Positions 9,044 to 46,768 of a stretch of DNA of 64,000 nt are shown here, one piece after another. This DNA is from Isoetes taiwanensis (taxonomy: Eukaryota; Streptophyta; Lycopodiopsida; Isoetales; Isoetaceae), in contig JAJEKV010000013.1 of the NCBI GenBank assembly GCA_021234155.1, positions 674,894 to 738,893 on the forward strand, given 5' to 3'. The position numbers were made by a program, and so were the translations under genes. Position 1 is the first letter of the stretch. Each line of letters opens with the position of its first letter. A model generated the notes under the pieces. It made no database searches. It was given only the letters and a program-made list of their open reading frames with translations, and had not been told where the DNA came from.

Positions 9044-9251
9044 TAAATTCTTTATCTAAGCATGCATGTGTAGATCTCTTGAGTTCCTAGGCTTAAGTAG
9101 ATCCAACGGTAGAGATTGATGGGATCTCCAGTTACCGAGAGGTTAACTGGCCAGCCCCGTCACAGTTGATATTAGAGCAAAGATGAATTAGTGGATTATA
9201 AGATTTTTGATTATTGATGTTATTTGCTATGGTTTCAGATTTTTGGTAGAG

Positions 9252-10667
9252 ATGAGTTCCCCAGGGGGATCCCCCAGAGCAGCTGGACAGGCTGGTGGAG
9301 CGGGGCCTAATGGAACTCCTTATATAGCCGATATCTTGCAAGCTATCCAGCAAGTGTTGCAGCAGAGTGCCTCGCAACAAAAGACAGCAGCTGGCAAGGC
9401 AGTGGAGAAGGTTCTTAAGGATACTAAGCGGGAAGTGTTTACTGGAGAGAATGTTACAGGGGATGATGCAGACTCATGGCTTCATGGGGTTGAGTTTTAC
9501 TTTAAACTCATTAACGCTGAAGATTCTGTTAAAGCTTTATTGGCTCAGGCAATGTTGGGTGGATTTGCTAGAGTATGGTGCGAGAATTACTTGCGGGACA
9601 TAAATAAGGTCGTAGGGCAAGCAACTTGGCAAGAGTTTAAAAGCGCCTTTGAAAGACACTTTATGCCTCCTGGATACAAAGTAGACAAGATGAATGAGTT
9701 TTTGGACCTGACACAAAAAGGGAGTGTGGCCGAATATAATGAGAAGTTCTGAAGGTTGCAGTATCATTGTCCTTTCGAGGATAAGGAGAAGCTCTGCGCT
9801 CGATTTGTGAAGGGTTTGCAAGTTGATATTAAGAGCACAATGTCAGTTGTGTCCTATAAGGATCTGGAGGAGGTATTCTGAATTGCTAAGAATCGTGAAT
9901 TTGACCTAGCTGAGAAAGCAACTTTGGAGAATTCAAAGAAGAGACAAGCTTATTCCATATGGCAGACTGCTGGACCTATGAGTAGAGATAGATTCTCTAG
10001 TCGAGGAGGTACTGTTGCGCAGACTGTTTGTATGCAGGAGAGCAGTCAAAATTGCGGATTTTGCCCTATGTATGCACCTTCAAATGATGAAACCAGGGAA
10101 AAGTTTATCAATGAGAATCAATGCTTTAGGTGCAGAGAAGTTGGTCAGTATGGACAAGACTGTCCGAGAATATGGGCAGATAGTACCACCTCATCTGCAG
10201 GTTCTCAACGTGGAGGGCAAACAAACCAGTGGTCCAGGTCAAATTCTAGTGATGCTTATGGGCGGGGCCAAGGCAGAGGAAACCTAGGCCGAGATAACAG
10301 GGGTGGTTGTGGAGGTTATTGGGATAATAACAGGGGTGGTAGAGGACAAGCTAGAGGAGATAACAGGATCATAGCACAAGACAACTTTACAGTTGAAGTT
10401 AGGGCTGCTCGAATCACGGACCCTCCTGTGGAAAGAATGTGCATGTATGCTGCAGTGGACCAGGGCCATGTAGATAACCAAGTTGTAGTCATCAGAGTAC
10501 TAGGTATTATTCATGGAGTTCCTGTTCTATTTCTTATTGACTGTGGTAGTACACATTGCTTTATTTCCCCAAGGCTGGCAAAGAAACTAGATTTGAACAT
10601 GATTAGTCGGGACCCTAAATATGTGAGTTGGCTGATGGTAAAATTAAGACTTCTTATTCTATGGTAG
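9252..10667 (+). pseudogene. G1 gag-protease
   Basis: One frame runs from the ATG at 9252 (MSSPGGSPRAAGQAGG) to 10667, interrupted by two TGA stops (9750-9752 and about 9879-9881). The capsid-type gag core is visible at about residues 60-165: FTGENVTGDDADSWL, then MLGGFARVWCENYL, then TWQEFKSAFERHFMPPGY. A zinc-knuckle-like motif follows (CFRCREVGQYGQDC) in which the usual histidine is glutamine. A retropepsin-type motif (LIDCGSTHCF, about 10534) marks the protease. Gag packages RNA and the protease cuts the polyprotein. Both stops sit where a TGG/CGA-type codon could have mutated by a transition, as expected from decay of methylated DNA. Non-functional. Confidence 0.85.
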
Positions 10668-10913
10668 AAAATCTTGAATTCCAAGTAGGAGACCTTGAGT
10701 CTCACGCTAGTTTTGAAGTATTGAGCTAGGGAAGTATAGGAATGTCATGGTTGGGACCATGTAAAGCTTGCATTGATTGTGGGAAGCAAGTAGTTACATG
10801 CCAAAGTCCTAATGGAGATAAGTATGTGCCGGAAGGATTGCCTTCATTATTAATGGTTATCCCTTTGTCCAGAAAAAGCTTTTAAGAAACAGATTAAGAG
10901 GGGTTGCATAAGA

Positions 10914-11684
10914 ATGGGATGTGCATTGTTGTTAGATCCATTTTTGGGTACCGCAGAGTTGCAAGAACAACCTATTGCTCTTGAGATCCAGAAAGTGTTG
11001 GATGAGTTCTCTGATGTGTTTCCTGAAGAATTAACAGAATTGCCTCCACATAGAATGGTAGATCATGAGATAGAACTTGTTCCAGGGGCTGGACCTACAT
11101 CAAGGCCACCACATAGATTTCATGCATTAGAGATGGCTGAATTAAAGAAGCAGTTAGCAGAATTATTGGAACAAGGGTTCATACGGTCAAGTGTTTCTCC
11201 ATTTGGGGCACCAATTTTGTTTGTGAAAAAGAAAGATGGGACATTAAAGTTGTGTATTGATTATCATATGCTTAACCAGATTACAGTTAAGAATAGATAT
11301 GCATTGCCTAGAGTTGATGAGCTCTTTGACCAGTTGGGTCAAGCTAAGTATTTTACAAAAATTGATCTTCGATCTGGATATCATCAGATCCGGATCAAGG
11401 ATATAGATATTTATAAGACTGCATTTAGGGCACGCTATGGACATTATTCCTTTGCACAAACTAGATTGGTATACCTTGGACATGTTATTTCAGAAAAGGG
11501 ATTGGAGCCAGATCCTTCCCAGATTGAGGCAGTTAAGGATTGGCCAACACCAACATTCTTGGGATTAGCAGGGTATTACTGCAAATTTGTTCCTAAATTT
11601 GCAAAGATTGCTGCTCCTTTGACTTCTTTATTGGGTAAGAAGAATGACTTGCATTGGACTAATAGTTGTCAGGAAAGTTTTTAA
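10914..11684 (+). pseudogene. G1 reverse transcriptase with active-site deletion
   Basis: The 256-aa ORF has the Ty3/gypsy RT start ([20 protein letters not shown]), fingers ([20 protein letters not shown]), palm ([14 protein letters not shown]) and [14 protein letters not shown]. It then jumps directly to [19 protein letters not shown]. The block normally lying between these, which contains the YxDD catalytic aspartates, is missing, so the enzyme cannot polymerise DNA. After the thumb ([20 protein letters not shown]) the frame stops at 11684. Family identity is very secure; function is lost. Confidence 0.92.
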
Positions 11685-12120
11685 AAGTTGAAGGATATCT
11701 TGATTAGTGCACCAATTTTAAGGATTCCTGACATGAATATGCCCTTCCATGTAGTCACTGATGCTTCTGGGAAAGCTATAGGGGGGCATTGTTGCACGAT
11801 AACCGATTTGTGCTTACATATCTCGTAAGTTGTCCCATGCTAAATAAAATTACTCGATGTATGATTTGGAAATGTTAGCTATTATCCATGCCTTGAGGGT
11901 ATGAAGGCATTATTTATTAGATCATCATTTCTTTTTGAAGACTGACGACCAAAATTTGAAGTATTTTGCAAAACAGCCATATCTGAACAATAGGCAAAGG
12001 AGATGGATGCAACTAAGAGAAGAGTATGATTTTGAACTTGAATATCAACCTGGCAAGGAAAATGTGATTGCTGCTGCTTTATCTAGGAGATCATTTTTAA
12101 TCTCTATTAGTGTGCTTTAA
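11685..12120 (+). pseudogene. G1 RNase H remnant
   Basis: In shifting frames this reads a Ty3/gypsy RNase H: a DASGKA segment at about 11759, LEMLAIIHALRV at about 11868, then DDQNLKYFAKQPYLNNRQRR and WMQLREEYDFELEYQPGKEN with the terminal AAALSRR (to 12100). This domain degrades the RNA strand of the replication hybrid. At least one frameshift lies near 11785. The sequence then passes directly to the integrase C-terminus, so the integrase zinc finger and DDE core are deleted. Confidence 0.75.
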
Positions 12121-12597
12121 GGACAAAATAGACAAAAACAATATGCAGACAAGAGGCGTAGGCCACTTGAATTCAAAAAGGGAGATTATGTGTTCTTAAG
12201 AATTAACCCCAAGCAGAGTTCAATGGCATTTAAAAGCGCAGGTAAATGGGCCCCTAGGTATGCAGGTTCATATGAGATTTTGGAACGCATTGGAAAGGTG
12301 GCTTACAGGTTGGAGTTACTTTCGCACTTGAAAGTACATAACATCTTCCATGTGAGTAACTTGAGGAAGTATGTTTTTGATCCTTCCCATATGTTGGGGG
12401 ACGATGATTTAGTAAGTAGGGAGAACTTTTTGTACCCCCGACCAGAGCGTATTTTGCAAGAGGAGACCTGTCGCTTACGGAGGCGAACAATAAGTAGATT
12501 TTTGGTTCAATGGGCTGGTTGTCCTGAGGAAGATGCCACATGAGAAGATGCCAATTGGGTTCTTCGCGAGTTTCTGGAGATGCGCCCATGAGGACAT
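12121..12597 (+). pseudogene. G1 integrase C-terminus with chromodomain
   Basis: The reading frame contains the post-core integrase segment (RRPLEFKKGDYVFLRINPKQ, APRYAGSYEILERIGKVAYR, LELLSHLKVHNIFHVSNLRK) followed by a chromodomain-like end (PERILQEETCRLRRRTISRF, LVQWAGCPEEDAT, then a TGA at 12541 and EDANWVLREFLEM). The chromodomain reads histone marks and directs integration in chromoviruses. The stop codon sits where the conserved tryptophan of the domain would be. Confidence 0.85.
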
Positions 12598-20835: not shown

Positions 20836-21000
20836 GTGGACATTAGGATATAAATATCTTGTACTGTATACCTTGTCAGCGTGGTACCATCTTGGACATT
20901 ATGTTCTTGTATAGCCAGATAAGATAGTGGAGGGATTGACCAATGCTGATGTTTGCGCTAGGATTAACTAGTTCAAGCCAGTTTTTTTTTTCTTTGAAGG

Positions 21001-22552
21001 TGTGACATTCCAGAATAATATACGGTATGAATACGTATATTATACTGACACGTCACTAGTACATGTCGACTCAGACGACATGTACACATCGACCATAAAG
21101 GGGTAGTACCCTAGGGTACAACCCTGTGAACCATTATATTGCACATGTTAAGGCCACATGTGAATATAATATCCTTTTGCCATGTGGCAATAGCCCATTG
21201 ACCAAAAGGGCCCAGCCCTAAATTCGTGGGGATAAAGGGACATAAACCCTAAAGGGGAAACCCTTTCGGTTTCCAGCCCCTATAAGTCGGATTGAGCAAA
21301 GATGGGCGCCTTTTGCCCTAACAAGAGCTTGAGGAACCGAATTCCTTAGTTGCGGCTGATCCAAGCCAAGCAATCTCGAGATCCAAAGAATGGACGCCTT
21401 GGAGGAGTGGGAGCCAGCCAAGAAGCGGGTTAGTGGTTGATCCGATAGTTAGATCCGAAGCCAGGCCTCATTCCATAGGGATTAGTATTCATTCTTGGCT
21501 ATAGGCCCCCCACAACCTAAGAATGATAGATACTAACAAAGGAACCTAACCATGTATGATTAGGTAGATTAGAATAGATGTATTCTATTATTTCAGTTCC
21601 GTTGTGATGATGTTTTGACATTATGCCACTCTTGTGTATTGGGAAGGGGGTAGAGACCCGTGAGCCCAAGTAGTTGGAGGATCCTAGTTTTAGCCCATTA
21701 ATTCCCAATTAATGCGCCTCGTATATAAGAGCCCCACCCGGCCGGGTGGCGGAAAGCAGGCCGGCCGACAAGGGAGGTCTTGTCTAATCACGGTTGATCC
21801 CTCCGTGCGTGAGCGACGGCCGGGAACGTTGAGCCAGGCCTAATACCACGCGCTGCGTGAGGGCGGGGTATGGGCTCGACACCCTCTTGGGCGATCGCGC
21901 CGCCTTCCGGGGTTCAAGTCGTATACGAGCAAAGGGTCTCTCTGCCTTGTGATTGGCATGAACCTTCGAGAGGGGAGTGATCCCCCCCGCCTCATCGGGC
22001 CGGGGGGAGATGCAACCCAAGAGTAGCAGAGCCCCTCCGCTATTCACCCGGCAGGCTACGGTCGCTCTCAATACTTTTCAAACCTATCTGCAAAGTATGC
22101 AATGGGAAGGGCGGATGGAGTGGACTACCCAACGCCATGTTCCTATGCCAAAAATCCATTTGCCATGAATTCTATCCGCATTGCTATCACGGAGACCCCA
22201 AGCCGCCATTCGATCCCCATCAACAGAGGCCCGGGTAGGATCTTCCCTATGTTATGTTGATGTACCGATGTGTGATGCAACTCTTGTGGATATGGTGGAC
22301 CACCCTTCCGAGGTGGGCATGTTTATTATTGATTGATGTCATGTGCTCATGTTTTGTTTACGCTTCCGTTGCTAGGTCGATCCCGAGGGAGACGGGATGA
22401 ATGACACGTCCATTCTTCCCCATCGGGTTCTTGGCCACCATCGAGAGCCCGATGTTAGGTGGACGGCCTCACATCAGCGGGCAGATGCTGGTTTGAGGGA
22501 TGATCTCCAGTTTGTATCACGACGGGGCATCGATATGAGTAAGGCCGTCACA
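21001..22552 (+). repeat. G2 5' LTR
   Basis: TGTGACATTCC to CCGTCACA. The start is rich in palindromes (GTACCCTAGGGTAC near 21107; ACATGTCG...CGACATGT at 21061; AATATACG...ACGTATATT). A TATA box (GTATATAAGAGCCCC, about 21721) is a likely Pol II promoter. Homologous to 33145-34708. Confidence 0.95.
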
Positions 22553-22553
22553 A

Positions 22554-22567
22554 TGGTATCGAGCTCG
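22554..22567 (+). promoter_or_regulatory. G2 primer-binding site
   Basis: TGGTATCGAGCTCG lies one base after the 5' LTR. It resembles the complement of the initiator tRNA-Met 3' end used by many plant LTR elements (TGGTATCAGAGC) with a small deletion. Confidence 0.7.
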
Positions 22568-22804
22568 ATCTTGGCGCATCGGGATCGAGCAATCGAATCA
22601 AACCCTATAGGAACTAACTAATCTAGACATTCAGTCTTGGAGATAAAAGCCCAAGCACAAACCTCGAGTAGCGGGAAAATTTTTCTTCCCAGGGTAGAGT
22701 TAGTAATTATCTAGGATTAGGATAATTAGAGAACATAAGTAAGATAGAACACATAGGAGAAAAGCACCTAAGAGGGCCTACTAAATTTCAGGCACTTTCG
22801 GCCG

Positions 22805-22876
22805 ACACCTCCAAGGGTGCGCCAGGAGCATGTTAGGTCCAGACCTAATGGGTCTCTCGCGCACTCTTAGAGGGGT
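22805..22876 (+). repeat. palindromic cloverleaf element, copy 1
   Basis: The outer arms are ACACCTCCAAGGGTGCGCC and GCGCACTCTTAGAGGGGT; the inner hairpin is TTAGGTC-CA-GACCTAA. It sits just left of the antisense helicase fragment. Confidence 0.85.
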
Positions 22877-22984
22877 CACCCCATGTGAACCCTAGAACTC
22901 GGCCATAGGTACCCCAAATGGTAAAATAAAAGATGAAATTCCATCTAAACAGCTCGAATTAGCTAAACTTGTATGTTAAAACAC

Positions 22985-23597
22985 AGGAAAACACTAAATA
23001 AAAGTCAACGAACCGCATAAGTTCGACATCTCCTGCATTTTGTATTGGCTGATATAACCTTAGCACACGAAAAGTTTGCCATAGTGGCGATGACTTTATG
23101 GATGCTTTGATCACGGCAATTTTTCTACCTCCTTTTATGCAGGCGCTACTTGTCTGAAATCCCCAGATGCTATAAAGTGCTTTCCTCCAAATGGCAGGTT
23201 ATTTCTACATAACTCTTGCATAAATAGTTCACACTCTCTACCACTGCTCTATTGGCCATTGGAAATTCATCCCAAATTATAGCCTTTGCTTGAATGAGCA
23301 GTTGAGCTGCCCTAGAATTTCGTTCCAATAGTGAGTACAAGCCTGTGTTATTTTCTGTGACGGGGATCTAAAAGAGTGAATGCGCAGTTCGACCCCCCGG
23401 ATATAATAAAGCACAAAGTCCTGTAGTGCCACATGGGAGTACTATATGTCCATTACCACGTAGTAATAGGCATACGCAATTGAGCAAGAATGTTTTACCT
23501 GTGCCCGCTTTTCCATCCACAAAAATTGGTCCTTCACTTTGTTGAAATTCTAATTGATCCTGTATATAGAGGTATATATCCGATTGGTTATTAGAGC
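22985..23597 (-). pseudogene. Helitron-type PIF1 helicase fragment, antisense inside G2
   Basis: On the minus strand from about 23590, the sequence reads DQLEFQQSEGPIFVDGKAGT, then GKTFLLNCVCLLLRGNGHIV. This contains the Walker A motif GKAGTGKT. After frameshifts it continues with AKAIIWDEFPMANRAVVE (Walker B, DE), then NLPFGGKHFIASGDFRQVA and an ASIKSSPLW-like segment near 23060. These are motifs I to III of PIF1/RRM3-like helicases as found in Helitron RepHel proteins. It encodes the part of the helicase that the window's palindromic Helitron lacks. It lies exactly between palindromic elements 1 and 2 and opposite to the retrotransposon's transcription, so it is captured or inserted debris. 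Confidence 0.88.
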
Positions 23598-23670
23598 AAC
23601 ACCTCTAGGAGTGCGCCAGAGCATAGTTAGGTCACGACCTAACCCCCTTCTCGCGCACTCTTGGAGGGGT
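23598..23670 (+). repeat. palindromic cloverleaf element, copy 2
   Basis: Outer arms AACACCTCTAGGAGTGCGCC and GCGCACTCTTGGAGGGGT; inner hairpin GTTAGGTC-AC-GACCTAAC is a perfect 8-bp stem. It marks the right limit of the antisense helicase piece. Confidence 0.87.
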
Positions 23671-23810
23671 CCCCTAAAAGTGACTTAAAAAACTACTCAA
23701 AACTAACTAAAAATATGAAATAAATGGTAGAATCGAGCTTAGAATGCTTACATTAGTGGGAAATGCATGTTCATTAGTGTAAATTATATACATTTAAGGC
23801 AGAAAAGTAC

Positions 23811-23884
23811 AACACCTCTAAGGGTGCGCCAGGGCCCAGTTAGGTCCGAACCTAACCCCCTTCTCGCGCACTCTTGGAGGGGTT
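23811..23884 (+). repeat. palindromic cloverleaf element, copy 3
   Basis: Outer arms AACACCTCTAAGGGTGCGCC and GCGCACTCTTGGAGGGGTT; inner stem GTTAGGT-CCGA-ACCTAAC. It lies immediately upstream of the H3-like gene's promoter. Confidence 0.87.
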
Positions 23885-23939
23885 CGGGAGAAAACGACTG
23901 AAGAAGACTCCACTTTGGTTCAAGGTGGGGAGAATTTCG

Positions 23940-24101
23940 CCAGCAAACCAACAAGATGACCAATTCGACCGAACCCTAAAATTTAAACCCTATAAATTAC
24001 GGGACGTAGGCTCATTTTCTAGGGTTTCTCAAGTGATTCCGCGAGCTCCTTCTGATAGCCGATCTTCTGGCGCCCTGCTCCGAATTGAACGCTGTTATAC
24101 A
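23940..24101 (+). promoter_or_regulatory. promoter and leader of the H3-like gene
   Basis: Contains CCAATTCGACCGAACCCTAA at 23960 (a CCAAT-like box fused to a telo-box) and a TATA-like CTATAAATTA at 23990, about 110 bp before the ATG at 24102. The combination CCAATTCG(A/G)CCGAA plus CGAACCCTAAAA is repeated upstream of the second cargo gene, which suggests the two genes are regulated together. Confidence 0.55.
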
Positions 24102-25264
24102 ATGGCTAGAACAAAGCAAACCGCTCGTAAGCCCAAGAAGGATGATAAGCCCAGCGCCCAAGTCCTCGCCGCTGAACAGAAGCTCAAAGATGCTGACGAG
24201 AAGCTGAAGGCCGACATGGAGAGGCGGCCTAGGTATTATAGGAATTTGGAAAAGAGGCGCGGGAAGGAAGAAAAAGCCAGGAAGAAAGAAGAAAAGGCAA
24301 AGAGAAGGGAAGAAAAGGCCAAGAGAAAGGAGGAGAAGGCGAGAAGAAAAGTGGACGAAGAAGCTGCAGAGGGAGAAGACGACCAATGGCGAGAGCAGAG
24401 GACAAAGAATAGGGAGGAACCCGACCGGAAAGGAAAAAGGGTAATGACTGAAGAACCCCGGCCTAAGAGGAGGAGGACCTCGACCGGCGTAGTCATAAAC
24501 GAGACAACCGAGGGTGAACAACCTCCATCCTCGTCAGAAGATACTGGCGATGTAGCAGACTTCTTGGAGACAGTGCTTCTCGGAACCGGAGAATCTTCAC
24601 AGAAGCAGCCTAACCCTCGTCCTGACACAGATGAACCCCTGGAGGAAGAACCACTCCCAGCTCAGGCCCCGGCAGAGACACAGGTTGACCTACCCCCGCC
24701 GTTGCCCCCACCATTTTTGGAATGGCAAGAGGCAAAGAAGCTTGATGCAGAAAAAGCAGCTGGGAAGAAAGCAACCAAAACCGCCCGGGACTCGTACACC
24801 TTAGGGCCCGAGAGGAGGTACAAGAAGGAATTAGCCGACTATACGATATACAAGAAGATGTACGACGAGTACGCAGCTTATTACGAAGCACACAGGGTCA
24901 AGTTTGTCGAAGGATCCAGCTCAAACCTCCACCAGAACTGCCGGAAACCCCCAAGAAGCCTATGAAGAGATCCCAAGACTCTCCTTTTGCAAGAGCCCTA
25001 CGAGAAATCCGCCACTTTCAACGGAGCTACGGATTTCTGATTCTGAGAGCAGCATTCCAGAGGTTCGTCCGAGAAATCTTGTGGGAGTTCGACCCCAACA
25101 AGCGAGTAACTAACGACATGTTACTCGCTTTACAAGAAGCAGCAGAGATGGAAGTAGTGCAACACTTCGAGGATTCACTGGCGTGCACGCTCCATGCAAA
25201 GAGGGTCACACTTCAACCAAAGGATATGAAGCTAGCCAAATATATCAAGAGGACAGATAAATAG
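24102..25264 (+). CDS. histone H3-like protein carried by retrotransposon G2
   Basis: The ATG at 24102 opens with MARTKQTARK, identical to the first ten residues of histone H3 (K4 and K9 present; S10 replaced by P). A lysine/glutamate-rich, probably coiled or disordered linker follows (repeated EEKA(R/K)(R/K)K units, about residues 55-90; RPKRRR at about 130), then acidic and proline-rich stretches. This frame ends with TGA at 24963. An overlapping frame (ATG at 24962, ATGA overlap) encodes the H3 fold: ARALREIRHFQRS, AAFQRFVREI, LALQEAAEMEVVQHFEDS, then HAKRVTLQPKDMKLAKYIK. It aligns with plant H3 over about 87 residues without gaps, roughly half identical by eye from memory. Loop 1 has canonical H3 length, not the longer CENH3 form. 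The shift is either a one-base lesion or a coupled start-stop. Confidence 0.87.
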
Positions 25265-25400
25265 AAGGGAACTTACCTTTTGTAACTAACACTTTATATG
25301 TAATATATGAAAATTTTGAGTAAAGAAGATATATAGTTGTTTAAATGTGCATTGGAATAAGTACAAATAGTAGTTAAGGAGCAAATGTCCAATTTTGGCC

Positions 25401-25474
25401 AACACCTCTAAGGGTGCGCCATAGCACAGTTAGGTCTGAACCTAACCCCCTCCTCGCGCACTCTTAGAGGGGTT
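25401..25474 (+). repeat. palindromic cloverleaf element, copy 4
   Basis: Outer arms AACACCTCTAAGGGTGCGCC and GCGCACTCTTAGAGGGGTT; inner stem GTTAGGT-CTGA-ACCTAAC. Flanking TTGGC and GCCAA extend the outer stem. It is located 137 bp after the H3-like stop codon. Confidence 0.87.
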
Positions 25475-25613
25475 CAGCCAACTGGGCCCTTGATCAGCAA
25501 TTTACCTGCTCCAAATGAAGTAAATAACCAAAGAAACCTGCAATTAACAAGAAAAGAAATAGGAATTTACCTCTTTAAACTTGTTTTTGGCATTTATTAA
25601 GCATAGGTAGGCC

Positions 25614-25686
25614 AACACCTCCAAGAGTGCGCCAGAGGCCACTTAGGTCCTAACCTAACACCCTCCTCGCGCACTCTTAGAGGGGT
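25614..25686 (+). repeat. palindromic cloverleaf element, copy 5
   Basis: Outer arms AACACCTCCAAGAGTGCGCC and GCGCACTCTTAGAGGGGT; inner stem TTAGGT-CCTA-ACCTAA. It lies immediately upstream of the second cargo gene's promoter, as copy 3 does for the first. Confidence 0.87.
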
Positions 25687-25719
25687 CCGACCTTTCCAGG
25701 TCCATAACTCGAGCTACAC

Positions 25720-25987
25720 ATATCCAATTCGGCCGAAATTTGTTGCGTTCGAACCCTAAAAGTGGATGCAAGCCATTCCTAGCGTCAAATTAGCCTAGAA
25801 ACATCCCACTTCATCTCCAAATACCAAAAGTTTTAGAAACCCTAAAATTTTTAGGGTACAAGATCCCTATATATACCCTCATAACCTCTAAATCCACACC
25901 TACAGGATTGCTCCAGTGCCCCAGGCGATCTTCCAGGCTCCTTAAGCGCTTCTAGTTCTGTTAGACATCGGCAGCACGCGCCTCCTC
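25720..25987 (+). promoter_or_regulatory. promoter and leader of the second cargo gene
   Basis: CCAATTCGGCCGAAAT and CGAACCCTAAAA match the H3-like gene's promoter motifs. A further palindromic telo-box-like CCTAAAATTTTTAGGG lies near 25840 and a TATA box (CTATATATACCC) at about 25867, about 115 bp before the ATG at 25988. Confidence 0.55.
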
Positions 25988-27434
25988 ATGGCTACTTCAT
26001 CCTTCATCAGCTGGTACAACGCCTCTCCCCACGTTGCTGAGGTAGATGTTAACCTAGTGTTCCAAGTTTTCCAGAAAGAACTTGACTTGTCGGCAACCCT
26101 GAACTCCAACCCGTTCTAGAAGTACCCCCATGCATAGGGTACTTTGTACCAAAGACTGCATTGCAAACATCCCTTAATCATATACCCAACATTGCCAAGC
26201 TACTGCAGAATAGAACAGAGCGCCTACCCAATTACATGACCCTGAGTAGCAATAGAAAGAGATTTTTCTCCTACAACACAGCCTTAGCACTGTATCTATT
26301 CTATAGGGCCCAAACAGTTGTAGGTGAACCATCCATCCAGCCACTAGAGGTCACATGTTTGGACGCAGCAGCAGACGAACAACTACTGCTCGAGTACGAA
26401 GAGTCTGAAGAAAGTGAAGACTCAGAAGAAGGAAGCGAAGAAGAAATGGAAGTGGACCCAGAAGAAGAACGCCGGGAAGCAGAACAGGATGTTACCCGAT
26501 TCGAAGCTGACAGGAGCACGCCAAGGATAGCGCACCCAATCGGGCTCGGAATAACAAGTCTAGCACCGATTATAGTCGAAGGCCAAGAGTATTTATTTCT
26601 TAATGATATCAAAAACCTTCCCGAATGCAGGGATAGGGGCTACCGCGTCGACGAACTGCTTCACCTTCTACGGCAACAACCGAATTTAGAGGATTTCATC
26701 GACCAAGACACAGAAGACTTTCCAGTGCAGGTAAGGGAGGCAGCAACATACACAGGACATAACATGTCAGACATCGAAGCTTATAGCACCATAAGAGGCA
26801 TGATGGCGGAAGAACAACTCCCTACAGAAGAGGAGTTTTTGGCACTGCAAGAGCAGATGGGAATAAGGGGGAAGTCAACAAAGGTACTGCTACCAGAATC
26901 TTCTTCTCAAGAACCATCACCAACCTTCCAAGGGAGAGCCACGAGCTTAACAAGTGTACGCACGCTCTTCCACGACTACGAAGAACTAGTTCAAGTACCG
27001 GTTGATCAGCATGCATCCAGGCACAGGTCTACCTCGGGAGCACGAGGAGGAATACCCGGAGCAGCACTGAAATACTATCTTCCGCTCGGCAGAATAATAG
27101 TATTTCATAAGCTATTCAGCCCACGTGGAGAGGAAGCCATCAGATGCTGATAGCATTATCTGGTTTTGGTATGCACGCCCGATTATCAGAGAAAATCGAC
27201 CATGTAATTTTAGTGAAGCGAAAGACAGCCTTGAGCATATTTGACTTCGCGGTACCTCACCTCCGACAAGGTCGGTTGGCAGTAACAGCAGCACATACCT
27301 CAGATAGACTGGTCGAAGAGCTAGCATTAGCTATCAGAGGGGGATCATCAAGGGATATACTCCGGAACTTGGGACGTACAGTGGGTACAACCCAAGTGAA
27401 GAAATTCCTTGAGGATCACCCAGCCCATCAGTAA
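25988..27434 (+). CDS. acidic-linker protein with possible H2B-like and H2A-like ends
   Basis: The ATG at 25988 opens MATSSFISWYNASPHVAEVD, followed by VNLVFQVFQKELDLSATLNS, which resembles the first helix of an H2B fold. A TAG at 26117 requires a one-base shift into the frame that continues LNHIPNIAKLLQNRTERLPN and YMTLSSN...TALALYLF (weak H2B-like pattern). An acidic stretch (EESEESEDSEEGSEEEMEVD) and an unassigned central region follow. The frame ends at 27150 and overlaps ATG 27144, whose ORF reads LAVTAAHTSDRLVEELALAI and RGGSSRDILRNLG, comparable to H2A alpha2-alpha3. A competing short match is KRKT...D...RQGR, as in the H4 C-terminus. The histone reading is tentative (H2B-H2A doublet-like); the ORF itself and its promoter are clear. 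Confidence 0.4.
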
Positions 27435-27573
27435 AATTATGTAATGAAAATCATGACTATTGTATTAAGTAATATATATCGGCTATATATTAATAAATAT
27501 AAGATCTTTTGAATTGCACTTTAAATGTCTTTTTGATATCTTTGTCTTAACAATCATATCATTCAAACACGTA
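27435..27573. other. spacer between cargo and gag
   Basis: AT-rich sequence without a palindromic element; contains AATATATATCGGCTATATATT, an imperfect palindrome at about 27469. Confidence 0.4.
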
Positions 27574-28830
27574 ATGCAACCAACAAACGAACTCATGATA
27601 AATGGTGCTAATGTAATATGTGCAGTTAGAACAGCCAGGAATGTCGACCTTGAGTTCCAAGCCCAAGGCGATCAGACACCACTCAGACAATTCCAGCCTC
27701 GGAATCTATTCGAGGAGTATTATGCACCGACGCCGGAGGAAGAAATTTCGCAGATGAGGTCGGATCTGCAAGAAATAAAAGCCATGTTGGCGGGCAGGGG
27801 AAGAGACAGGCAGGACCAGAATGTGCAGGCCCCAGAGGCCCGCTCTCAGCACAAGGGAAAGGAGAAAAAGAGGAGCCGGCGCAGATCTTCTAGCTCCAGT
27901 TCTTCAGATAGCTCGGACTCAAGCTCAGAGTCTGAGGAGGAAACAGGAAGAACCGCCAGAAGGGAAGAAAGAGTAACGGCAGCGTACCAGCCAATATCGA
28001 CTACCGTAAGAAGGTCGACTCGGCCTTTAAGTAATGTTTGGAAGGCACGCAAGCCGAAACAAGCCCGCTTAAAATAGATCGTGGATGGAAGCCGGGCATG
28101 GCTAGACGAGATGAGTGAGTACGAAAATGCTTACGCATGAAAGACAAAGACAAGGGCGTGGTAGCCACCGCTAACTTGAAAGGGCAGCCCGTGATTTGGT
28201 GGAGGGCTATGCTAAAGCCCATGGAATGAGCAGAGACAAGTGCAGTTCACAAAGTTCGCAAGGGTTTCAAAAGCACTATGTCCCAAGAGAACACAAGTGC
28301 CATCGATGCAAGCATTCCACGATTACAACAGGGGAACAAATCCATTTGAAATATACCAAAGAGTTCATGAGGTTGAGGTCAGATGTGCCAAAACTCGCTG
28401 AGAGAAGAGCAAAGGAAGGTTATGTGGAGGGCCTCAATGAGGACCTCCATGAAGATAGTCGAGTCCCGAACCCGCCAAAGATCGAGAGGTCGGGCAAAGA
28501 CCGTGGAGCCTACAAGGGGCGGACCCCGGAAAAAGTGAACCCGGGCAAGTGGTAACGACAAGGGAAAAGCATATGGAGGCCGAGCCCGAGAGCAACCAAA
28601 TTCGCCACACCGCCAAGATACCATACCGAAACCAATGGAAACAAAACGAGAAAAAAAGTGTCACCTTCAAAGATAAAGGACAAGGGGAGGCTCACATTAT
28701 TCAAAGACAGTCCAAGCGGTTCCTCAACTCCATTCAAAGAAAAGAAAAAGCGGCAGAATGTATAGAAAAAAAACAATTGTGCTTCCTGTGTTTCAGTAGG
28801 GCATAGAACACAATAACCGCCTGCTCGTGA
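27574..28830 (+). pseudogene. G2 gag
   Basis: The frame opening at ATG 27574 (MQPTNELMINGANVICAVRT) encodes a segment with heptad pattern (EEEISQMRSDLQEIKAMLAG), then a basic/serine-rich stretch, and stops at 28077. Shifted frames continue typical retrotransposon gag: VVATANLKGQPVIWWRAM (about 28155), then KYTKEFMRLRSDVPKLAERR and AKEGYVEGLNEDL (28350-28450). A partial zinc knuckle (CFLCFSVGH-like, about 28780) lies near the end. Gag forms the particle that packages RNA. At least two frameshifts and one stop inactivate it. Confidence 0.75.
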
Positions 28831-28833
28831 TGA

Positions 28834-31331
28834 ATGCAAAGACTTATGGAGATGGGAGGTTGGGAGATCCCGACAGAAGAAGAGGAGGACGAAGGATGCG
28901 ACTTTATCCATGGTGAGTGTCACATCTTTGCCGCCATAGATACAGAAAGCGCAGAGAGCCAATACCAAGTAATATCCATGATTGGTAAGAGAGCCGCAAA
29001 ATCCTTTATAGTCCTCATAGACTGTGGCAGTTCCCACAATTTTGCATCACCAAGGATGGCCGAAATGCTAAAGTTGAAAACAGTGAAGTCTAAGCCCAGG
29101 CCAGTAGTGTTAGCTAGCGGAGCCATAAGGCACACGGCTGGCAAGAGGGTGAATTTCAATATAGACTTACCTGGTATCAGCATTGAAATGGGCGCAGAGA
29201 TCATGAACATAGGAAAGTATGACCTCATCATAGGTATGGAATACCTCCACCCGGCAAAAGCACAAATAGATTGTGGAGAGCGGAAGGTGAAGCTCACGGT
29301 GCCCAACGGAAAAATCATAGAAATCTCAGGTAAGCAAGTGACACCTATAATGCAATGCATGTCAAGTAAGAAATTACTTAGATGCATCAAAAAGGAGCAA
29401 GTTGCATATATCTTCAAATTAGAACTTGCCGAAGAAGAGGCACCAGAAGATAAAGAAGACAAATCAGTAAGCAAACTACCCAAGCAGGTAGCCAAGCTAA
29501 TAGAGGCGTTCCATGACTTGTTCCCCGATGAAATCAAGGAGCTTCCGCCATATCGAGGAGTGGAGTGTGAAATTGCACTCGAACCAGGCACTAAGCCCAC
29601 GAGTAAGGCACCATACAGAATGACGGCTCACGAACTATCAGAGTTGAAGAAGCAATTGCAAGAGCTATTAGACCTAGGGTTATAAGGCCTAGTGTCTCTC
29701 CGTTCGGAGCCACCATCTTATTCATCAAAAAGAAAGATGGAAGCTTGAGGATGTGTATTGACTATCGTCAATTAAACAAACACACAATCAAGAACAAGTA
29801 TGCCTTACCCAGAGCAGATGACCTGATGGATCAGTTACAAGGTGCCAGAGTCTTCTCCAAAATAGACTTAAGGTCTGGATATCATCAAATCAGAATCAAG
29901 GAGGAAGATATTCACAAAACGGCGTTCCGAACAAGATATGGCCACTATGAATTCACGGTGATGCCATTTGGCCTATCTAATGCCCCAGCAACGTTCATGA
30001 GACTCATGAACGACATCTTTCGGGAATTCCTTGACACATTTGTTATCGTGTTCTTCGATGACATTTTGGTGTATAGCAAGTCCCTAGAGGAGCACACGCA
30101 GCATTTGAGAAGGGTACTTGAGAACCTGAGAAGGCACCAGCTTTATGCGAAGTTGTTGAAATGTCATTTCGCCACCGAAAGAGTGGAATACTTGGGGCAT
30201 GTCATATCAGCAGACGACATCTCCACCGACCCCGCAAAGATCCAAGCAGTGATTGAATGGCCAGCACCAAAGAACATACACGAGGTGAGAAGCTTTTTGG
30301 GCTTAGCAGGCTATTATAGAAAGTTTGTCAAGAACTTTGCTAAGATAGCAGCACCTTTGACGGACCTCACCAAGGCAGAGAAGCTAAAAGACTGGGTGGC
30401 ACATTGGCAAAAGAAGGCTCAAGCAGGATTCGAGAAGTTGAAGGAAGCCTTAACAACCGCCCCCGTCTTAACATTGCCAGATCCAGAGAAGGACAAGCTA
30501 GTTGCAACCGATGCTAGCAAGATTGCGACGGGAGCAGTCTTAATGCAAGAAGAAAGAGTCGTAGCATACGATTCACGGAAGATGAACGACGCAGAGACTC
30601 GCTATCCGACACATGATCAGGAGCTATTGGCAATGGTAAGAGCTTTAAAGATCTGGAGACACTACCTATTGGGAAGGAAGTTCCAATTAGATACCGACCA
30701 CCAGAGTCTGCAGTACATCTTCACGCAACCATTGTTGAATTTGTGGCAAAGAAGATGGATGGAGTTCCTGGAAGAGTACAACTTCGAGATTGTGTACAAG
30801 CCAGGGAAACTCAATGTGGTCGCAGATGCTCTGTCAAGGCACCCCTTAACAACAAGGGTGCATTGCAATGCCATATCAACACTCACCAGTGAGTTTGGCA
30901 AGAAAATAGAAGAAACATTGCCAACGGACAAGGACTTCCAGGAAGTATGGGCAAGCCTTTCTAAAGAGGCAAGAACGGACAAAGAGAGAGAAGCCTTCAA
31001 ACACTTTAAGAAGGAAGGAAATCTCTTATACCATAAAAATAAGTTGTATGTGCCAGAATCATCCGGAGTCAGAAGGTTGATTCTCCATGACACCCACAAC
31101 AGCCCAATAGCCGGCCACGCAGGTTTTACGAAAACCTACTTCAAGATAAGAAGTAGTTACTATTGGCCAGGCATGAAGAAGCAGATAGCAAGGTACATAC
31201 ACGAGTGTCGACTATGTCGACAAACCAAGGCGAACAACTACAATTCCGTGAGCATTAGAGCCATTGCCGCACCAAACTCCAAGTGGGAGATAATAAGCAT
31301 GGACTTCATTACGGGCTCCCTAGAACCATAA
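28834..31331 (+). pseudogene. G2 pol: protease, reverse transcriptase, RNase H, integrase zinc finger
   Basis: Two long frames, split near 29685. The first has the retropepsin-like motif VLIDCGSSHNFASP and the RT lead-in (LIEAFHDLFPDEIKELPPYR). The second (from 29745) has RT palm motifs [32 protein letters not shown] and the catalytic FFDDILVYS. Thumb [20 protein letters not shown] and RNase H ([52 protein letters not shown]) follow. The HHCC zinc finger of integrase ([19 protein letters not shown] ... CRLCRQTK) and the first catalytic region (SMDFITGS) come before TAA at 31329. All RT catalytic residues are present but the polyprotein is frameshifted. Confidence 0.93.
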
Positions 31332-32386
31332 GGGGGCAAAGACGCCTTAATGGCGTAGTCGACAAAATTGTCGAAAATGGCCCACTTTGTGCCTTGTAGG
31401 AGCACCGACACCGACTTTGGACACACCGTATATTCACAAAGGAGATTTTTAGACTCCACGGAATGCCAAGAGAAATAATCTCGATAGGGATTCAAGTTCA
31501 TGAGTGCATTACGCAAGATCTCTTCAGCACCATCGAACGAAATTGTCAATGAGTTCGCTTATCACCTTCAAAACGGATGGCCGACGAGAAGGCACTAATC
31601 GCATACTTGAAGATATGTCATGAATTATGTCCGAACAAGCAATCAAAGTAGGATGACTTCATTTACCGGGTTGAGTTTGCATACAATAGCACCAAGCAGA
31701 GTCATCCCAAATGTCGCCGTTATGATCAACTACGGCTATCGGTGCTGACACCGACACTTGGCACAACCCCATGTCCAAGGTAGAAGTATCCCAGCCAGAT
31801 GTTAGCCGAGATGCAACAATTGGTTGAGGAGGTGAGAGGATACCTCTTAGCAAGAAGCCGCAAAAAGAGCATAGCTGATCGGCAATCGAACAAGAAGGGA
31901 GTTCAAAGTAGGGGACAATGTTTGGCTGAAGATAAAAGTCAAACAAGCAAAGCTCTCGCATCGGCAATTGCAAGAAGCTTGCTCCAAGGTGGGCTGGTCC
32001 ATTCAAAATTGTCAAAAGAGTGGGCAACCAAGCCTACAAATTGGACTTACCAAAGACACCTCAAGATCCATAGAGTCTTTCACGAAGTCTCCTAAAGAAA
32101 CACACTCCTAATCCGGAGGGAAGTATTGGAGACACCGAAGTTTATCGGAATTAACGGACGCATCAGCTTGAGATTGTCCCCGAGGTTCTTCTCGACCGAT
32201 CCTATAAGAAGACGAGAAGATCTCAATTTCTCCAGTACCTTGTGAAATGGACGCACTTACCAGTGGAGGACGCTACGTGGGTACTACAATCAGATCTTGA
32301 GAAGCAGTACCCACAATTCATGGAGCAATGCAAGGGTCATCTCGTCACCGAAGTGGTCGACTCCGAACCGATGGGTGAGTGAGGTA
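31332..32386 (+). pseudogene. G2 integrase core remnant and chromodomain
   Basis: The DDE core is scrambled by frameshifts: a RLHGMPREIIS segment at about 31450 is recognisable, with the following acidic catalytic motif disrupted. Further on, KLAPRWAGPFKIVKRVGNQA and YKLDLPKTP (31975-32060) are the integrase C-terminal barrel. QFLQYLVKWTHLPVEDATWV and LQSDLEKQYPQF (32225-32320) form a chromodomain-like end. It presumably directed integration to particular chromatin when active. Confidence 0.8.
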
Positions 32387-33130
32387 ATATAGGAGTCTAC
32401 TTCCGATGCCATGGAAGTAGTCAATTGAGAGAAAAGAGGTCATTCAGGAATGCATTTGATAGGAAAAGCACCTCTAGCCCCATATATGCTTTGATAGGAG
32501 GAATCTGTCCTTCACGCCCACATACGGGAAGGACCCTATCCTCCACGATGGGCAACTAAAGGTGTAGGCATGAGCGGCATATAGGCATGATAGGGTGCTG
32601 TCTCCACGGCCACGATGGAAGAATCATCCTCTTCCTACGCCGGGAGATTAGCCCTGCATTCATGTAGATAGGTGGGGTGGTCACCATATAACCAAAATTT
32701 TATTAATAATTAAATGATACTAATGTAGTGCTGAACCTGCAGGCCAATAGAACGACGAACAGGCGGGAGGTTGCACTACAAGATCTTGTAGCATATGTAG
32801 TGAATAAATGCTACAAGGGGGACGAGAACCTTAAGAACACTTTTTGTTATGTTTAATCTTGATATTTTAAGCTTGATATTTTAAGTAATGTTCAATTAAG
32901 GCATAAATTAAAAGCCTTACCACAAAACGATTATAAACATTTTACTTATAACTTTTTATTACCTTATAATAATTGTCTAAATTAAAAATATCGAAAGAAT
33001 TCGATAAGCTGTATGCAGGTCCCTTTCTTCAAGGTGGATATGATATTAGTATATTGGATGCATCAAGTTCATTGCAAGTTAGCAAGATTCCAAGGTGGGG
33101 AGACTCGTGATGCTGCGGATAGCATCAATC
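32387..33130. other. G2 3' untranslated region
   Basis: Non-coding. CCAAGGTGGGGAGA occurs twice at the end (33091 and 33131), and CAAGGTGGGGAGAA occurs a third time far upstream at 23920. Confidence 0.5.
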
Positions 33131-33144
33131 CAAGGTGGGGAGAA
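33131..33144 (+). promoter_or_regulatory. G2 polypurine tract
   Basis: AAGGTGGGGAGAA directly abuts the 3' LTR start TGTGACG at 33145. This is the position from which plus-strand DNA synthesis is primed. Confidence 0.8.
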
Positions 33145-34708
33145 TGTGACGTTCCAGAATAATATACGGTATGAATACGTATATTATACTGACACGTCAC
33201 TAGTACATGTCGACTCAGACGACATGTACACATCGACCATAAAGGGGTAGTACCCTAGGGTACAACCCTGTGAACCATTATATTGCACATGTTAAGGCCA
33301 CATGTGAATATAATATCCTTTTGCCATGTGGCAATAGCCCATTGACCAAAAGGGCCCAGCCCTAAATTCGTGGGGATAAAGGGACATAAACCCTAAAGGG
33401 GAAACCCTTTCGGTTTCCAGCCCCTATAAGTCGGATTGGAGCAGCATTGGACGCCTTTTTGCCCGAACAGTAGCAGAGGAACCGGAATTCCTTAGTTGCA
33501 GCTCGATCCAAGCCAGCAATCTCGAGATCCAGCAGCATGGACGCCTTCAGAGGAGTGGGAGCCAGCCAAGAAGCGGGTTAGTGGTTGATCCGATAGTTAG
33601 ATCCGAGTTTTCAGGCCTCATTCCATAGGATTAGTATTCATTCTTGGCTATAGGCGACCCCTACAGCCTAAGAATGATAGATACTAACAAAGGAACCTAA
33701 CCATGTATGATTAGGTAGATTAGAATAGATGTATTCTATTATTTCAGTTCTGTTGTGATGATGTTTTGACATTCTATGCGCCACTCTTGTGTATTGGGAA
33801 GGGGGGTAGAGACCCAAAGCCCAAGTAGTTGGATGATCCTAGTTTTAGCCCATTAATTCCCACCAATGCGGCCGCATAAGAGCCCGCATGGTTGTGGGTG
33901 GCGGAGCTAGACCGGCTGACAAGGGAGGTCTTGTCTAATCACGGTTGATCCCTCTGGTGCGTAGCGACGGCCGGGGAACGTTGTGAGCGGGCCCGATAAT
34001 GCACCAGCTGCGTGAGGGCAGGGTATGGGCTCGACACCTCTTGGGCGTCGCGTCGTCTTACGGGGGTTCAAGTCAGATACGCAGCAAAGGGCTCTCTCGC
34101 TGCTTCCGGATTGGCATGAACCTTCGAGGGGAGTGATCCCCTCACGCCTCATCGGGCCGGGAGATGCAACCCAGTAGCGAGTAGCCCCTCCGGGCTATTC
34201 ACCCGGGGGTTACTGGTCGCTCCAATACTTTTCAGCCTATCTCGCAAAGTATGCAATGGAGGGGGCGGATGGAGTGGACTACCCAACGGCCATGTTCCTA
34301 TGCCAGCCAAATCCATTTGCCATGAATTCTGTCTGCATTGCTATCTGGAGACCCCAAGCCGTCAGTCGATCCCCATCAGTCCGAGCCTGGGTAGGATCTT
34401 CCCTATGTTATGTTGATGTACTGATGTGTGATGCAGCTACTGTGATATGGTGGACCACCCTTCGAGGTGGGCATGTTTATTATTGATTGATGTCATGTGC
34501 TCATGTTTTGTTTACGCTTCCGTTGCTAGGTCGATCCCGAGGGAGACGGGATGAATGACACGTCCATTCTTTCCCGTCGGGTTCTTGGCCACCATCGAGA
34601 GCCCGATGTTAGGTGGACGGCCTCACATCAGCGGACAGATGCTGGTTTGAGGGATGATCTCCAGTTTGTATACGATCGGGGCATCGTATATGAGCTGGGG
34701 CCGTCACA
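33145..34708 (+). repeat. G2 3' LTR
   Basis: Homologous to 21001-22552 throughout, with scattered substitutions and small indels. The TATA-box equivalent is altered here (GCATAAGAGCCCGC near 33884). It ends CCGTCACA and is followed by the GAAGG target duplication. Confidence 0.95.
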
Positions 34709-34713
34709 GAAGG

Positions 34714-35235
34714 TAAGAAGATAAGCTTTATTGATTGGAAATTTTTTTACAAAGCTAAATAGCTAGTATTATGGTGGCCATAGCCACTACCTCTTCCCAA
34801 CTAGTAAGTACTATGGAAAAACGTTCTGCCCTTTCCTGCAAACTACGTTTCTATAAAAGCTAACATGCCTCTGCCTCCAAAAAAAGGGCAACCTCAAGAT
34901 ATAAAGTTTAAAATTGAACTTTAGTGAAATGCTTCAATCAAATAGTCTACTAAGCATGCCAGTGATTTGCTCCTGAACTTAATACCAAAATTCCCTTGAA
35001 GCTCCTCCTCCGAAAGTAGCATGGACTTCAAACATTTCAAGAGCTTGCTCCCAACCGCGTGAGGTTGGAGCTCCCTATTCTGTAAGGACCCAGGGCCATA
35101 GGAATAAAGAGACAAAAAACATGCCACCTTCATCTAATCCCGTTCAGTCTTGTCACCTCATGGGATCAAGTGCACAATGATTAGGAGCCTCCCGTCTCCT
35201 ACTCATGCATATAGCTATGTATATTCCTCCTACTA
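34714..35235. other. non-coding; flank of G2 insertion
   Basis: No recognised gene or repeat. It continues whatever sequence G2 entered (the left flank is at 20836-20995). Confidence 0.35.
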
Positions 35236-44885: not shown

Positions 44886-46768
44886 GACATGAAACGCAGT
44901 CTATGCTAGAATTGCCTGTTAGAGATGGAGAAATACGAAATATTGATCCATCAAATAGTCTTAAGACTGCGATAGTAGAAGACAATAATAATAAATAATC
45001 TGGGTCAACCTCTTCTAATAGTTCCACAGGGATTGCATTGACGAATGCAATCCCTGTGGGACAACAGAGCGATATCATTCCCACTTTGCTTACAGATTAC
45101 TTAGATATTAGCTCTGCGGCACGCCATTGGCGACATCAAATCAATGTCATGCAGCTAAATATTAAACCTATAGCTTATGAGCTCTTAAAATGGAGCAAAA
45201 AGTGTCAAACATGTGGTATTGAACTGCTTGATTCTGAGAGCCCTACATTCTGCTATAACAATGGCCATCGATTACTTCCGCCTCTGGAAGATCTCCCTAG
45301 CAAATTACAGCATCTCTACGCGATACCTGAATTTGGCACGAATTCACGTATCATCAACAATCTTTTCTGCTTCACAGCGCTTGGCGTCAAGGGAAGCTTT
45401 GTAGACCTAAAGCTGCCAGCATGTGTTGCTATTATGGGACGAACATATCATCGTCTCTTATCTGCAAGTGAAACAAACAGTACTCTTCATTGGTATATAT
45501 ACGATGACACAAGACGATTTGAACTCGGTAATGAAATGCGAGTACCAGCACACTGGATCATGGAAGTTGCTGCCGTACTAAATGTTACAAATCCATATTT
45601 TAAAGAGTTAAGAACAGTAAACGAGCTACATCCATGCCCAGCAAGACTAACACTTGCCGATGCACCTGCACCGAACGAATTTTCTGCAATTGTGCATGCA
45701 AACAATAGCGTCACAATAGAACCGAGATCGGTTGTACTGTGGATGCGAAAAGAGCACAAGCCAGTCTTTATAAGCATTCTTGATCCTATGTATGAACCAC
45801 TCCAATACCCACTATTCTATCCACATGGCACTCCTGGATGGCATCCACGCAATGAATACAAAATGTCCCAAATAGATTGGTACCGAACCAGGCTGCTACA
45901 TGAGCCACGCTTCTTGCAGCTTGGCAGACTCTGCAATGAGTACCTAGTCGACATGTACTCGAGAGTTGAAGAAGAACGCCTCAACTACATTGCAACAGAG
46001 GGATACCGCCGAAACTTAGCACAACATGAAGAAGATTTCATCGATGATGACGACGAAGATGCCCGCCAAGGAACCCTGCCTGCGTCTTTCTTAGGATGCA
46101 AAAGATGGTGTTCAGTACAAGTCGCAGACTCGTTAGCGTTGTCGAGAGAATACTGAAAACCGAGTTTTTTCATAACAATGACCACAAATCCCAACTGGCC
46201 AGAAATTAAATGCAGACTAGCACCCAGTCAAAATGCGTCGGATATCCCAACAATTGTAGTCAGATCATTCCATGAAAGACTCCAGCATGCAAAAAACATT
46301 ATTCGAAAACACTTTGGCCCATTATCTTTTTTAATGCACGTAATTGAGTTCCAGAAACGCGGGTTACCACATTCGTATATCGTTACAAAAACAACGCATG
46401 AGCTTCCAATCACTATGATTGACGATTTAATTTCAGCAGAGCTACCGACGGATCAGACACTCAGAGCACAACTAGAAAAATATATGATCCATAATCATTC
46501 AAAACGATGCCTTAAAGACGGCCAATGTTGTTATGGCTATCCAAAACCCATTAATCAAAAAACATACATCGACGAAAAAGGCTACGTGCAATATAGAAGA
46601 AGAACTGAAGCCGATATCAACGTCGTCCCTTATATGCCGTTCCTGTTAAGAGAACTGGATTGTCACGTGTATGCAGACGTCGCATCAACTGTGCATATAT
46701 TTGCATATCTTTACGGATATATATACAAAGAATTCGATACCACGTGTTTCGAAGGTTTGTGTATATGA
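44886..46768 (+). pseudogene. Helitron Rep (HUH nuclease) gene, left arm
   Basis: Starting after a splice-type acceptor (TTTTTGTAG), the frame reads the Helitron N-terminal zinc-finger region (CQTCGIELLDSESPTFC), then NNLFCFTALGVK, then RTYHRLLSASE. The Helitron-like N-terminal block DPMYEPLQYPLFYPHGTPGW follows, and then Rep with FQKRGLPHSYIV and VHIFAYLYGYIYK (two-tyrosine region). The HUH pair reads H-S-Y here; the other arm has H-S-H. Stop codons interrupt at 44996 (TAA) and 46154 (TGA). Rep nicks and joins DNA in rolling-circle transposition. The ORF ends at 46768 before any helicase. Confidence 0.9.
45024..45059. repeat. perfect 16-bp hairpin inside Rep coding sequence
   Basis: CCACAGGGATTGCATT, loop GACG, then the exact reverse complement. 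It is present in both palindrome arms (right arm 49519-49554, loop CGTC), within the coding frame at the peptide TGIALTNAIP. Confidence 0.95.

Follow-up and report, generated by a model that had tools for sequence, protein, structure and literature searches.

Capture of histone genes by mobile genetic elements has been described in fungi, where hAT DNA transposons captured and amplified histone H3 (PMC6710886). As in those transposons, the locus described here places an H3 coding sequence in a mobile element. The fungal elements, however, are DNA transposons that carry a housekeeping H3 and exist in Pseudocercospora fijiensis as hundreds of RIP-inactivated copies (PMC6710886), whereas the present element is a Ty3/gypsy LTR retrotransposon and its H3 is strongly reshaped, tail and fold being separated by a linker of some 280 residues. 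Among plant elements, orchid Gypsy retrotransposons carry an ORF for an active AlkB m6A demethylase (PMC9289625), which parallels the present case in adding a host-type ORF to a plant Ty3/gypsy element, although its product is an RNA demethylase rather than a histone. Across 121 angiosperm genomes, 15 extra domains have been reported, with no histone among those named (PMC9289625). Gene23 of Grande, an antisense ORF with its own promoter (PMC7264820), is likewise an accessory gene, but the H3-like gene lies in the sense orientation, upstream of gag. Given these and other additional ORFs of plant LTR elements (PMC7264820), the premise of the initial annotation, that gag-pol is normally all that LTR elements encode, is too strict; the word ‘histone’ is absent from the main text of this survey of such ORFs. 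A further parasite-encoded histone, the bracovirus protein CpBV-H4, is said to join host nucleosomes, to change expression and to act via its N-terminal tail (PMC5423620); it differs in being an H4 from a polydnavirus of wasps, and it is likened to our protein by description, not by sequence. A search of the full-text literature, judged by titles and abstract openings and covering few subscription papers, revealed no histone gene in an LTR retrotransposon.

The window, a 64,000-nucleotide stretch of an Isoetes taiwanensis contig (JAJEKV010000013.1), contains at positions 21001–34708 an element that is bounded by two LTRs and, outside them, by the target site duplication GAAGG (20996–21000 on the left and 34709–34713 on the right); its features lie on the plus strand unless stated otherwise. 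The 5′ LTR (21001–22552, TGTGAC...GTCACA) is followed by TGGTATCGAGC (22554–22564), which, from its sequence, we take to be a likely primer binding site of the initiator-Met-tRNA type, and the 3′ LTR (33145–34708) is preceded by a polypurine tract (33132–33144), recognized from its position and composition. A broken gag-like region (27574–28830, limits set by eye) is assigned from its position before the protease, its match to Retrotrans_gag (E-value 0.11, 13.2 bits) falling short of the cut-off of 24.1 bits. Protease, reverse transcriptase, RNase H and the integrase zinc domain were recognized by Pfam at 28834–31331 (RVP_2, 4.6e-10; RVT_1, 2.3e-40; RT_RNaseH, 3.3e-33; Integrase_H2C2, 2.7e-19), with the frame changing once, between 29607 and 29685. 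Between 31331 and 32155 the integrase core is disrupted, with no Pfam match for the two pieces tried there; a chromodomain follows at 32155–32379 (PF00385, 2e-10). From the LTRs, the GAAGG duplication and the domain order PR-RT-RH-IN-chromodomain, the element is therefore a Ty3/gypsy chromodomain LTR retrotransposon. Judged by its mobile elements and motifs, the window appears to come from a plant. The two LTRs differ by 166 substitutions over 1539 aligned columns (K2P distance 0.117 overall), but the differences are unevenly spread, with 2 substitutions in columns 1–300 versus 118 in columns 600–1299, and we assign no insertion age because divergence this patchy cannot date the copy. The differences form small scrambled clusters with compensating gaps nearby, adjoining near-identical stretches, and the pattern may be due to conversion or to assembly error.

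The H3-like gene shares its strand with gag-pol, ahead of which it lies, downstream of the 5′ LTR; the LTRs, the duplication and the pol domains bear out the original claim that the gene resides inside a bounded Ty3/gypsy element. It is read in two frames, the first (24102–24917) opening at 24102 with MARTKQTARK, the exact start of the H3 tail, as had been noticed, and continuing into a charged linker, and the second (24918–25264) comprising the end of the linker and an H3 histone fold (within 24962–25261). A frame-specific codon score trained on the pol of the same element rises near the ATG, follows frame 0 until 24917 and then frame 2, and falls at the stop codon (25262–25264); the coding call of this model spans 24127 to 25252. 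Codon usage resembles that of pol, with a z-score of 6.3 in the linker and of 4.1 in the fold; none of 1000 dinucleotide shuffles scored as high in either, although host genes may have the same usage. The continuity of the score across both frames therefore indicates one long gene with a single slip in this copy and a linker that is coding rather than intronic; thus, the stretch of about 280 residues previously proposed between tail and fold is indeed present. The slip, near 24,918, is the only one in 1.16 kb, no other stop or shift having been found in the gene, whereas the model finds little coding sequence in the gag and integrase stretches, which are less well preserved. Protease–RT carries one frame change in 2.5 kb, so that per base the H3-like gene is somewhat more broken than this best part of pol. 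At the LTR indel rate, the gene should have acquired about ten frame-breaking indels, against one observed; we do not regard this deficit as proving selection, since RT likewise has an open frame over 1.7 kb.

The second frame encodes a member of the histone H3 family by fold. It matches the Pfam Histone family (PF00125, 3.4e-22) with 79.4 bits, above the cut-off of 26.4, finds H3 chains in the PDB with a best E-value of 4.1e-21, and is modelled by AlphaFold with a pLDDT of 91.4; the alignment to H3 is ungapped over 84 positions, with 50–52% identity. The assignment of the C-terminal domain to H3 thus withstood the kind of check proposed earlier, here by HMMER and fold comparison. Canonical H3 or H3.3, which are near-invariant proteins of about 136 residues, are ruled out as the identity of this protein by the linker of about 280 residues and by the 50–52% identity of the fold.

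The divergence of the fold is far from random with respect to position. The protein retains the H3 residue at 26 of the 29 positions where 85% or more of 33 homologues have it, versus 2 of the 25 where under 50% do, a gap equalled in none of 500 neutral simulations and none of 20000 permutations. Because these homologues were found with the H3-like protein itself as the query and do not form an independent set, the comparison was repeated with four CENP-A-type histones as the yardstick: the protein keeps 16 of the 18 positions shared by all four versus 2 of the 12 unshared positions (0/20000 permutations as high). The open frame alone is weak evidence of function, since 50 of 500 neutral runs simulated to 50% identity contained no stop, and the replacements are not more conservative than under neutrality (mean BLOSUM62 score −0.3 versus −0.53, the former reached in 95 of 500 neutral runs). 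The kept residues include R49, R69, R72, R83, E94, E97, E105, D106, C110, H113, K115, R116, T118 and D123, several of which we take to contact DNA, H4 or H3′; R49, R69, R72, R83, C110, H113, R116 and D123 presumably make DNA or H3–H3′ contacts. The changes R63L, P66A, L109A and R129Y fall at positions that presumably make DNA or H3–H3′ contacts in H3. The strong evidence is the position pattern of the changes, which shows that the protein diverged under H3-type constraint, as a histone-fold protein. Such constraint may have acted after the gene joined the element or earlier, while it was still a host gene, and the pattern fits either history.

The leader of the element holds features that the initial annotation had not mentioned, namely five hairpins, promoter-like motifs and a Helitron-type helicase fragment. 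Hairpin 1 lies at 22800–22882, hairpins 2 (23594–23676) and 3 (23807–23889) form a pair upstream of the H3-like gene, and hairpins 4 (25397–25479) and 5 (25610–25692) form a pair upstream of the next ORF; in both pairs the second hairpin follows the first by 213 bp, and the two spacers are unlike each other (35% ungapped identity). The five 75-nt copies have a mean column identity of 87%. Three pieces of the hairpin, searched across the window with up to four mismatches, gave, beyond the five copies, one isolated half-match, at 34452 in the 3′ LTR, and Rfam returned over 20900–34800 a single match, far below the gathering score. Pairing holds in 97.3% of cells, with no two-sided change and with 500 of 500 shuffles reaching the observed value; in the absence of compensatory change, five such similar copies cannot show RNA selection, and we reject the hairpins as covarying RNA on this alignment. 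Between hairpin 3 and the gene (23955–24000) lie CCAATTCGACCGAACCCTAAAA and CTATAAATTA, which, from their sequence, we take to be putative promoter-like motifs. Both the H3-like gene and the next ORF are preceded by CCAATTCG(A/G)CCGAA, CGAACCCTAAAA and a TATA-like sequence, the motif matches between the two leaders being short (BLAST E-values of 0.02 to 0.24 within the pair). Together, the hairpins and motifs look like a repeated leader module, perhaps with putative internal promoters. The ORF that follows (25989–27434, ends set by eye) is interrupted, acidic and of no known Pfam family, its main piece giving no Pfam match at an E-value of 1, and could be either an extra gene or an N-terminal part of gag; its single-sequence structure model is uninformative (pLDDT 34.5). 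This ORF contains a strongly acidic stretch, and the hairpin pair upstream of it is of the same kind as that before the H3-like gene.

On the minus strand between hairpins 1 and 2, some 500–930 bp upstream of the H3-like ATG, lies a decayed helicase fragment of the PIF1 type (23170–23604), matched in two pieces by PF05970 (1.8e-16 and 8.6e-06) and presumably Helitron-derived; within about 0.45 kb it contains one or more stops and, judged by eye, a frame change. The leader therefore probably took up foreign DNA, and the remnant points to a rival origin of the H3 that had not been named before. Helitron ends have the form TC...CTRR with a 3′ hairpin. Elsewhere in the window, two similar Helitron-like N-terminal ORFs (45038–46768 and 48557–49666, named by eye) lie in opposite orientation and are flanked by inverted repeats.

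We favour, by a modest measure and with an appreciable chance of being wrong, the interpretation that the H3-like gene is an accessory gene of this Ty3/gypsy chromodomain element and has been under selection. We prefer it because the element is bounded and the gene sits within it on the gag-pol strand, because the fold is real and has diverged under H3-type constraint, and because the gene shows a single slip where gag and integrase are badly broken; its pol-like codon usage and the precedents of the orchid AlkB ORF and the extra gene of Grande also speak for it. Against it stand the solitary copy, the helicase remnant, replacements no more conservative than neutral ones, the changes at presumed DNA or interface positions and a protease–RT that is less broken per base. 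The main rival, which we consider distinctly less probable but serious, is that a Helitron or a retroposition event dropped a host H3-variant gene, or a fragment of one, into this copy alone, where it plays no part in the biology of the element. Foreign DNA in the leader, together with the capture of genes by Helitrons, is what gives Helitron cargo this rank: the helicase remnant occupies the same leader, and Helitrons are prone to ORF capture (PMC6431247). The helicase, however, is a fragment broken within about 0.45 kb, whereas the H3-like gene shows one slip over its whole length; the hairpin-paired leader recurs before the next ORF, as if the gene belonged to the layout of the element itself; and H3-type constraint maintained through about 50% divergence is unlike a long-dead insert. 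Recent capture from an already diverged host H3 variant would still fit these observations.

The number of H3-carrying copies of the element seen so far, namely one, also suits accidental cargo, as does the lack of a sibling in protein searches. With the fold as query, 40 matches were obtained among 42 candidates, and the 32 inspected (29 as sequences, three in an alignment) were all H3, CENH3 or H3-like proteins, with no sibling among them; the tail and linker found none at an E-value of 0.01 or better among the best 7992 candidates, a search probably dominated by low-complexity words. When the fold was searched with full-length limits, giving 32 matches among 64 candidates, 18 were inspected as sequences and four in the alignment, ten further matches being judged by their table rows; the linker was absent from all sequences read. 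The protein sets searched may lack genes of masked repeats. Among these, the closest layout is that of a 294-residue unnamed protein (P0044), which starts with MARTKQTARR, has less sequence between start and fold, and shares 52% identity with our protein in the fold. Viral contigs gave no match for the fold, the tail and linker, pol or the second ORF, and tblastn detected no second copy of the gene in the window. From the layout, we consider it likely that the gene belongs to the element.

The relationship to CENH3 yields a different alternative, namely that a fast-evolving host CENH3 was captured and is used by the element for targeting to centromeres or heterochromatin. The H3-like protein shares with plant CENH3 an H3 fold, a variable stretch between start and fold, and the motifs EIRHFQ, the resemblance of which to CENH3 had been pointed out earlier, and VTL; long variable tails are usual in CENH3, and the best single database match of the fold is a Linum CENH3, which aligns to 88% of the query with 54% identity. 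By contrast, the first ten residues are exactly those of H3, and loop 1, as previously observed, has no CENH3-type extension, matching that of H3 in length and falling short of the plant CENH3 sequences compared by one or two residues. In a tree of 35 rows, from which alignment rows P0050, P0053 and P0067 were dropped and to which four canonical H3 sequences were added, the four plant CENH3-type rows (two of which, P0002 and P0020, were labelled from sequence rather than from names) cluster with support of 99/94 and exclude the H3-like protein, which sits on a long branch beside an unnamed protein (86/57); the tree is weak, with 6 of 32 inner branches well supported. Capture of a CENH3 thus seems improbable, and we conclude only that the protein appears to be a divergent H3, its membership in CENH3 being left unsupported.

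Histones of viral origin package DNA in some giant viruses (PMC9145170). In the H3-like protein, the first 110 residues (pI 9.95) and the fold (pI 9.83) are strongly basic, and the mid-linker is acidic (pI 4.37). A gag-like nucleic-acid packaging protein that re-uses the H3 fold, perhaps compacting element cDNA within the particle instead of entering host nucleosomes, would suit the basic regions and the location upstream of the gag region, but it is very improbable, considering that the mid-linker is acidic, that the exact MARTKQTARK and the kept core positions would be superfluous for simple packaging and that H3 needs H4 in order to wrap DNA.

Silencing of retrotransposons in plants relies on histone H3 marks. 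If the H3-like gene is an accessory gene of the element, as we prefer, a host H3-type gene would have been captured in the leader, by the element rather than by the present copy alone, and its protein would have been kept under selection until this copy landed, the single frame slip arising afterwards. The LTR transcript, or a transcript started in the promoter-like leader of the gene itself, may give rise to the protein; it would then enter the nucleus, where its fold could pair with host H4, and be deposited in chromatin, most usefully on the DNA of the element, as a silencing-resistant H3. With residues A1 to K4 of the tail retained, readers of active-type K4 could bind, whereas P replaces S10 after K9, and H3 residues 11 to about 40, K27 included, are unrecognizable, so that silencing marks would be hard to write on the altered tail. 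This mechanism, the one we favour among those considered, is a tentative proposal drawn from the sequence, and we regard it as rather unlikely in its entirety. Similarly doubtful, if not slightly more so, is its fuller form, in which a lineage of plant LTR elements would encode its own H3 variant behind a paired-hairpin leader and place it on element DNA, where it would bear K4-type marks and no normal K9 or K27 marks and so resist silencing. If true, an element carrying its own H3 would represent a direct escape from, or hijack of, H3-based silencing, and would demonstrate that histone variants can evolve in selfish DNA. The reading is open to assay at the level of the protein, its tail and its pairing with H4.

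The tail also bears on two earlier suggestions about the function of the gene. Mimicry of K4 and K9 signals survives in part: mimicry of K4 is possible, whereas that of K9 is doubtful because the context of K9 is ARKP rather than ARKS. A partnership between the tail and the chromodomain in biasing integration is weakened, given that alignment of the chromodomain to an HP1 sequence places I, W and L at the cage positions occupied in HP1 by Y24, W45 and Y48. The domain thus keeps W45 alone of the three H3K9me cage residues and falls outside group I; chromodomains without Y24, and usually without Y48, constitute group II (PMC3350952). Chromodomain-like pieces are also present in a second, broken Ty3/gypsy element of the window (9207–12589), together with pieces of gag, protease and RT, all of them named by eye.
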